Below, piece by piece: positions 1,832-4,718 of a DNA stretch of 64,000 nucleotides. Position 1 is the stretch's first letter; each line of letters starts with the position of its first letter. The DNA lies in assembly GCA_902827205.1 (NCBI GenBank), contig LR792634.1, positions 1,364,001 through 1,428,000 of the forward strand, written 5' to 3'. This stretch comes from Methanocaldococcus lauensis. GTDB lineage: Archaea > AGJL01 > Methanococci > Methanococcales > Methanocaldococcaceae. A program made the translations under genes and the position numbers. The notes beneath the pieces were generated by a model that was not told the origin of the DNA, searched no databases, and worked only from the letters and a program-made list of their open reading frames with translations.

Positions 1832-2188
1832 TTATTTTTGTTCATTTGATGCTTCGTCTACTCTTCCTAATTTTTCAACAACAACAAATGATTTTGTTTT
1901 ACTTATTGGTCTACACTCCATAACTCTTACAATATCTCCAACTTTTGCGTTTATACATGGAGGGTTGTGAGCAACTAATTTTGAACTTCTTCTTTCGTAT
2001 CTTTCATATTTTTTAATGTACTTTATAATTTCCCTTTTAATTATAACAGTCTTGTGTGGTTTGTCACTAACTACTACACCTACGAAACTTTGTCCTCTTA
2101 CTGGTAGAGATCCGTGAAATGGACAATGTTTATCATCACACTCTACTTCTGGAGCTTTTACAGGGATTCCTATATTTTTTGCTACCAT
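1832..2188 (-). CDS. rps17: Ribosomal protein uS17 (S17)
   Basis: S17 is a primary 16S rRNA-binding protein with an OB fold. I place the start at the ATG at 2188 ([16 protein letters not shown], 118 residues). A strong GGAGGT ribosome binding site lies at the right distance in front of it, while an upstream TTG at 2203 would lie inside that site. Family signatures are [20 protein letters not shown] and the [20 protein letters not shown] block. It is the first gene after the Rpp29 gene, with a 160-base gap that probably holds its own promoter. Confidence 0.95.
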
Positions 2189-2295: not shown

Positions 2296-2315
2296 AAAAA
2301 CCTATATATTACTTT

Positions 2316-2330
2316 AACGGTTGGGGCAAA
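2316..2330. repeat. Left arm of 15-bp inverted repeat flanking rnp1
   Basis: AACGGTTGGGGCAAA at this position is the exact reverse complement of 2642-2656. The two arms lie just outside the stop and start of the Rpp29 gene and pair perfectly over 15 bases, with 8 G-C pairs, unusually GC-rich for this genome. In the mRNA this arm is in the 3' trailer. It would pair with the region just before the start codon. Confidence 0.85.
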
Positions 2331-2349
2331 AAAGAACAAAAGATTTTAA

Positions 2350-2637
2350 TTAATATGGATACATAATTTTTACCTTTTTTTTCAATCTTTCTTCAGGTCT
2401 ACCTATTAACAATCTACCATCAACTTTCACTTTACAGTTTTTTAGTTCAAACATAAAGGTTGCAATGTTTTTTGGAATTATTACTTCTTTACCATTTTCT
2501 TTTTCTATTATTAAAGTATTCCTTGTCTCATCTACTACTTTGCCTTTAATACCAATCATTGACTTATTTTTTGAATCGATAATAGTAACTCTAAGACCTA
2601 TAAGCTCGTGTTTTAATATATTGTAAGGTGTTATCAT
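2350..2637 (-). CDS. rnp1: RNase P protein component 1 (Rpp29/Pop4)
   Basis: This 95-residue protein is the archaeal homologue of Rpp29, which binds RNase P RNA and helps process the 5' ends of tRNAs. The core LRVTIIDSKNKSMIGIKGKV and the following VVDETRNTLIIEK strand pattern match the Sm-like barrel of the family. It sits between SUI1 and S17, its usual archaeal place. The start codon is only four bases from the right arm of a perfect 15-bp inverted repeat. The GGGG in that arm is the only ribosome-binding-like sequence before the ATG, so pairing of the arms would mask translation initiation. Confidence 0.93.
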   Translation of the reverse strand: MITPYNILKHELIGLRVTIIDSKNKSMIGIKGKVVDETRNTLIIEKENGKEVIIPKNIATFMFELKNCKVKVDGRLLIGRPEERLKKKVKIMYPY

Positions 2638-2641
2638 AATA

Positions 2642-2656
2642 TTTGCCCCAACCGTT
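2642..2656. repeat. Right arm of 15-bp inverted repeat flanking rnp1
   Basis: TTTGCCCCAACCGTT is the exact reverse complement of 2316-2330. In the rnp1 mRNA it forms the last part of the 5' leader and contains the only purine-rich (GGGG) stretch ahead of the start codon at 2637. It is separated by 4 bases from a GC-rich hairpin at 2661-2700. Confidence 0.85.
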
Positions 2657-2660
2657 TTAT

Positions 2661-2700
2661 GGGGACGGGGTGTGCCCTATAAAAGGGCATCCGCGTCCCC
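2661..2700 (-). ncRNA. GC-rich 40-nt hairpin, candidate structured RNA element
   Basis: The outer stem GGGGACG (2661-2667) pairs with CGTCCCC (2694-2700) and an inner stem TGCCC (2673-2677) pairs with GGGCA (2685-2689) around a 7-nt AT-rich loop. A small internal loop between them allows two more G-C pairs. In AT-rich hyperthermophiles such local GC islands outside genes usually mark structured RNA. It lies in the SUI1-rnp1 gap, most likely as part of the rnp1 leader, though a separate small RNA is possible. I do not recognise its family. The strand is assumed from the operon. Confidence 0.6.
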
Positions 2701-2744
2701 ATTTTATTTAACTACTAAGAAATAAAATAAAGTATTGATTAAGA

Positions 2745-3053
2745 TTATCTAATTTCTATAGAATCCTTCGAGAATCCCATCTTAACTAAAATTTCAGCAA
2801 CTTTTTTCCTATGATCTCCTTGAAGTTCAATAGTATTATCTTTAACAGTTCCTCCACAGGCACAGATGTCCTTTAATTTTTTAGCAAGTTCTTTTAAGTC
2901 AATAACACTTGCATCAAAACCTTCGATTATTGTCATTAACTTACCAAACCTTCTCTTTGTAACATATATTTTTATTTTTTGTTCTTCCTTAGCTATTTCT
3001 TCACAAACACATAGTTCTTTAGGCAAACCACACCTTGGGCAAATTTCTGGCAT
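2745..3053 (-). CDS. Translation initiation factor aIF1 (SUI1 family)
   Basis: This is the archaeal SUI1/eIF1 homologue (102 residues), which binds the small subunit near the P site and helps select start codons. An N-terminal Cys cluster ([13 protein letters not shown]) is followed by the SUI1 core. There [15 protein letters not shown] and [19 protein letters not shown] match the conserved basic loop and Gly-rich segment. It lies between L29 and Rpp29, a common archaeal arrangement, and its 3' side leads into the GC-rich hairpin. Confidence 0.96.
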
Positions 3054-4498: not shown

Positions 4499-4718
4499 AA
4501 TATACCACCTTTAATAATGTTTAAGGCTAATAAATTTTAATTGTTTCTTTAAGTAATAATATATCAATAGATTGAATTAAATCCATAATAATTGAAAGAG
4601 ATAGAATTTTAGAATGTAAGAATATAGAATTTTTAAAGTGTTATATATAATTTACGAATAAACGAAATAACAAAATAAAAGTGAATATTGCTTAAATAAT
4701 TTAAAAAAGTTACAAAAT

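Follow-up and report, generated by a model that had tools for sequence, protein, structure and literature searches.

The message for the RNase P subunit P29, encoded by rnp1, on balance probably carries in the Methanococcales a cis-regulatory RNA in which a partner within the 3′UTR blocks the start region. Comparison of sequences shows three components: a leader hairpin (hairpin I) with an invariant asymmetric loop, a G-rich Shine-Dalgarno (SD)-like stretch, and a C-rich partner that is present when that stretch is present and changes when it changes. The whole appears to be an archaeal RNA control element not described before, and the literature searched yielded no description of the control of archaeal RNase P subunit synthesis. 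If the reading is correct, the covarying ends of this message would give archaea a clear example of direct 5′-3′ UTR pairing, few cis-regulatory RNAs being known or predicted in archaea (PMC7247131). As Methanocaldococcus jannaschii, with an RNase P already reconstituted and structurally solved (PMC6565675), belongs to the order, both ligand and mechanism are directly testable.

In the stretch of Methanocaldococcus lauensis DNA analyzed (64,000 nucleotides, here the window), a ribosomal-protein cluster harbors rnp1 (2350..2637, minus strand; 95 amino acids; PF01868, 94.8 bits; match to PDB 6k0a_E), flanked upstream by the gene for SUI1/aIF1 (2745..3053, minus strand; PF01253) and downstream by that for ribosomal protein S17 (1832..2188, minus strand; PF00366). 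The first-pass annotation had described a perfect inverted repeat enclosing the whole of rnp1, and its arms, 2316-2330 (AACGGTTGGGGCAAA) and 2642-2656 (TTTGCCCCAACCGTT), are indeed exact reverse complements of 15 bp with 8 G/C positions and with the gene between them. Since rnp1 is on the minus strand, the 5′ arm of its mRNA is AACGGUUGGGGCAAA (2642..2656, minus strand), which lies over the SD-like GGGG preceding the rnp1 AUG and, as had also been observed, includes the sole SD-like G run there; the 3′ arm is UUUGCCCCAACCGUU (2316..2330, minus strand), in the rnp1 3′UTR within the gap between rnp1 and the S17 gene. Even when up to 2 mismatches are allowed, the whole 1.48 Mb genome has these two sites and just one other, with 2 mismatches. 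The window has 20 perfect inverted repeats that are 12 bp or longer within 600 bp; this pair is the longest of them, the runner-up being 13 bp, and the most GC-rich, with 8 G/C positions where one alone of the others exceeds 2. A 15 bp match was reached in none of 200 shufflings of the downstream region. With arms that also co-occur across the order, the annotation's judgment that chance is very unlikely holds. Chance origin would be compatible with the complementarity in a single genome of family f2, which taken alone is not significant, but the arms co-occur and covary throughout the order and 15 bp with 8 G/C is an outlier in the window; the probability left to chance is negligible, and that reading is already refuted by the comparative data.

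For the comparison the flanks of rnp1 were read in each of 36 genomes of Methanococcales, from five genera and two families; the P29 of one of them, G008, is identical to the PDB 6k0a chain, which we take to be from the M. jannaschii RNase P structure (PMC6565675). Arms were scored in 35 genomes, 26 having both, nine having neither and none having a single arm, so that conservation of one arm only, which the first-pass annotation had named as fatal to its proposal, is not seen. G002 was tabulated with a 5′ match only, but is counted as having neither arm, as the match is a GGGC inside hairpin I that was reached because the 22-nt search window extended into that hairpin. The nine arm-less genomes represent at least two losses, one in a clade of six where everything is lost, and one or more in G002, G003 and G010 where the hairpin is kept. 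Since these three genomes retain the hairpin without the arms and six lack all, the system is dispensable. The six (G016, G033, G013, G026, G031 and G028, loci L016, L018, L019, L021, L023 and L025) form one clade that has lost hairpin and both arms, and its spacing between SUI1 and rnp1 is only 2-7 nt, which suggests that translational coupling took over from the leader.

Every one of the 26 genomes with the G run has a stretch of 3′UTR complementary to its own SD-like region, the pairing being 12-15 bp in family f1, 8 bp in g3 and 5-6 bp in the remaining f2 genomes. Where the f2 pairing is 5-6 bp, the G run sits in the loop of a small hairpin, GGGU-AGGG(G)AC-ACCC, that abuts the AUG or comes close to it. 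The 3′ partner is within an order-wide element, UUUU-(AAA)-G-(U)-CCC(C)A, downstream of the stop codon, and its distance from the stop codon varies from ~3 to >100 nt while the 5′ stretch keeps a fixed place over the SD-like site. In the window the U run directly 5′ of the CCCC core (2328..2333, minus strand), recognized from the sequence and the order-wide consensus, is part of this element or possibly an archaeal termination tract; termination in it, before the 3′ arm, would exclude that arm from the rnp1 message.

Pairing is supported by natural compensatory changes. Whether both arms change together in relatives, which the annotation had proposed as a check, can be answered in the affirmative: an A-U pair is flipped to U-A between G011 and G004 (AUCGG/CCGAA) and G000 (AACGG/CCGUU), g3 has one U-A pair fewer than f1 on both sides, and G014 and the g4 clade have GGG/CCC where their neighbors have GGGG/CCCC. 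The core of the arm in f1 contributes little covariation, as it is mostly invariant. When 3′ elements were swapped among eleven representatives, native partners gave a longest-match sum of 87 against 64.6 for swapped ones (p = 5e-5), and in duplex energy also the native ones pair better (p = 1.5e-4). The permutation, however, ignores relatedness, and most of its signal comes from the contrast of f1 with the rest, so that the separate events of coordinated change are the safer argument. These events also bear on the possibility that there are two independent features, with hairpin I a protein leader and the G and C runs an enhancer or weak SD and a 3′-end signal that are complementary simply as both are homopolymer-rich. 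Three genomes do have hairpin I without the arms, and the 5-6 bp complementarity of f2 is not significant genome by genome, as such independence would have it. Neither arm ever occurs alone, though, run length shifts in step on both sides, and the pairings of f1 and g3 extend well past the G/C run, and we regard independence as distinctly unlikely.

The arm helix has a calculated energy of about -11 kcal/mol in G000 (82 °C) and -10 kcal/mol in G021 (37 °C), these being growth temperatures assumed from the likely genera, with which the G+C content of the RNase P RNA (58% in G000, 42% in G021) agrees. Arms are shorter at lower likely growth temperature, and the calculated stability stays comparable.

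Adjoining the 5′ arm on its upstream side is hairpin I (2659..2702, minus strand; 40.3 bits with a covariance model), of which the first-pass annotation made no mention. It has an outer stem, a 1x3 internal loop (GG-A-U ... A-CAC-CC), an inner stem and a loop, with GGAU and ACACCC invariant in every instance. In an alignment with the correct register, both sides vary in 11 of 15 pairs; the proportion of cells that pair is 90%, in comparison with 69% on shuffling and at most 54% when slid, and the covariation score is 0.61 (0.22 shuffled). Loops in this alignment, A3, were padded with N to fix the register, the padding lying outside the counted pairs. An alignment of 29 sequences, itself fitted to the model, upholds the covariation. 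A search with the covariance model gives a single strong site in each of 30 of the 36 genomes, invariably directly upstream of rnp1, and a few weak extra matches (E 0.005-0.04) are in genomes without hairpin I. From its covariation hairpin I is clearly an RNA structure; across the genomes compared it is the more constant part of the system than the arms, and it is probably a protein-binding site.

Rfam 15, at gathering and relaxed thresholds, yielded no relevant family, the best sub-threshold match being of 20.7 bits and inside a coding region. The hairpin I model had no match in 51 rnp1 loci of other archaea, where two members of the order served as positive controls, or in 152 genomes of a neighboring phylum searched with strict filters and no internal positive control, and no relative was found among viral contigs. 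Nor did the 16S, 23S and RNase P RNA loci give a match, and so there is no sign in them of mimicry. A kink-turn of the type bound by L7Ae, which by consensus has tandem G-A / A-G pairs after a 3-nt bulge (PMC3651934), was considered and discarded, as the loop of hairpin I has A opposite CAC in every sequence. An apparent 5S rRNA (L067, ~4594-4603) has GGAUACACCC, in which the two invariant halves of the hairpin I loop are joined directly; being contiguous and with a different strand layout, this is probably a chance resemblance and not mimicry. In leaders of the M. jannaschii type (L007, 1445-1503), GAUGCCCC of hairpin I could pair with GGGGCAUC before the AUG as a possible local switch; this alternative fold is possible in several Methanocaldococcus, broken in G007 and absent in f2, and so is not conserved.

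Before the rnp1 AUG of the genomes with arms, no stretch matches the anti-SD better than the G run (-4.7 to -10.2 kcal/mol), with the SD-like run of f1 at the weak end (-4.7 to -5.5 kcal/mol), and the S17 gene, unlike rnp1, has canonical SD sequences. Since the 5′ arm takes in the SD-like run ahead of the AUG, the closing off of translation, which the first-pass annotation had put forward, is the natural reading of the pairing; the partnership of the arms across relatives and the location of the 5′ arm stand, and repression itself is what they would lead one to predict. With rnp1 RNA presumed to run through the 3′ element, the 3′UTR partner would fold back onto the start region in the mRNA, mask the G run and block ribosome entry. 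Hairpin I would be a receptor, most likely for protein, with subunits of RNase P and the cluster's ribosomal proteins as candidates, and binding to it may open or lock the leader-tail pairing. The outcome would be that an RNase P subunit, a low-copy protein, is kept at low output inside a heavily transcribed ribosomal-protein cluster. It is a more tentative proposal, and one that we would not expect to hold in full, that the P29 message senses free RNase P protein or ribosomal protein via hairpin I, with a temperature-tuned leader-tail helix that closes and opens, and so provides RNase P feedback through an mRNA folded end to end, as a new class of regulatory RNA in archaea.

The first-pass annotation had alternatively likened the arms to the processing stems around archaeal rRNAs, possibly cut by RNase P itself. 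As with those stems the rnp1 arms are complementary and enclose a segment of RNA. However, the archaeal bulge-helix-bulge stem, a 4-bp helix between two 3-nt bulges, is not what is found, the helix being continuous, 12-15 bp in f1 and 5-8 bp elsewhere (5-6 bp in most f2), short in half of the order and positioned on the start codon; an rRNA-like stem cut by RNase P or another nuclease is not supported. A broader version is that the end-to-end helix serves chiefly for processing or stability and not to block translation, sealing off the rnp1 segment of a longer ribosomal-protein transcript as a discrete, protected and possibly circular mRNA. That exactly one gene of the cluster lies between the arms accords with it, as does the f1 helix, which at 82 °C is still stable (about -9 to -11 kcal/mol); yet the helix offers no bulge-helix-bulge to the splicing endonuclease, what is constant is the position over the SD-like site and not how far the 3′ partner lies from the stop codon, and in most f2 genomes a pairing of a few bp with a G run in a hairpin loop at the AUG resembles initiation control. 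We consider such a role unlikely, though with some claim to attention. An intrinsic terminator, a GC-rich stem followed by a U run, does not fit, as the U run comes ahead of the C-rich arm, whose partner is >300 nt away. No published RNA ends for the rnp1 locus were found in the literature searched.

On its other side the 3′ arm abuts TTAAAGTAATATATAGG (2301..2317, minus strand), by its sequence a probable BRE/TATA promoter of the S17 gene, and a similar block, probably the S17 promoter there too, follows the 3′ arm in most f1 genomes. It is kept in several relatives yet is separable from the arm. G008, G011 and G004 have the arm core GCCCCAACCG intact with the TTAAAGTAATATATAGG-like block gone, and G002 retains AACCGTTAAAG and a TATA-like block with GCCCC lost along with the 5′ arm, patterns from which it follows that arm and promoter are separable. 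This has a bearing on whether the arms could be two copies of one DNA operator for a transcription factor, one at the S17 promoter and the other upstream of rnp1, that covary as its specificity drifts. Duplicate DNA sites would likewise change in step, and in several f1 genomes the 3′ arm does abut the TATA-like block. Besides the separability, however, there is no conserved promoter beside the 5′ site, in many genomes the 3′ element and the nearest TATA-like block are tens of nt apart, strand and position relative to the AUG are fixed, the f2 site has merely 5-6 bp, and the adjacent hairpin I is clearly RNA structure; we hold an operator to be improbable.

For the favored reading, control of rnp1 translation by leader-tail pairing, the closest precedent, by analogy, is the icaR mRNA of Staphylococcus aureus, where pairing of a short C-rich 3′UTR motif, UCCCCUG, to the SD region of the same mRNA, which is rich in G, lowers translation (PMC3868564). 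Similarly, GCCCC or GUCCC(C) is opposite GGGGC or GGG(G)AC at the rnp1 SD-like site. In contrast to icaR, the rnp1 element is archaeal, has a longer helix in hyperthermophiles, has a separate conserved leader hairpin ahead of it and involves the gene for an RNase P subunit; decay by way of bacterial RNase III, as for icaR mRNA, is not known for it, and the rnp1 pairing is predicted from sequence comparison. In haloarchaea also 5′ and 3′ UTRs act jointly in translational control, with 5′UTR stem-loops being needed; the genes and lineage are different, and in the portion of that report available no direct leader-tail complementarity is reported and no conserved motif shared with rnp1 is seen (PMC2636863). 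With regard to hairpin I, a survey of ribosomal leaders describes archaeal ones for S15, eL15 and L4, likewise covarying RNA structures before genes of the translation apparatus, but from other lineages (PMC7247131); the main text of that survey, the portion available, names no motif for Methanococcales, rnp1 or S17. Like ribosomal leaders, hairpin I is a covarying structure before a gene of a ribosomal-protein cluster, though the next gene, rnp1, does not encode a ribosomal protein, and the resemblance to an rRNA binding site that is frequent, not obligatory, in such leaders is not seen in it.

Some minor features of the locus and its surroundings can be added. A search of the window for tRNA genes gave none. 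Residues 1-33 of SUI1/aIF1 match the DTW domain below the cut-off (20.8 bits against 33.7), apparently reflecting a cysteine pattern. In G020, G024 and G025 (L062, L063 and L064) P29 is 120 amino acids because of a mid-protein insertion in comparison with the 95-amino acid form, and the gap between rnp1 and the S17 gene is 440-480 nt, with the 5′ and 3′ elements nonetheless kept.
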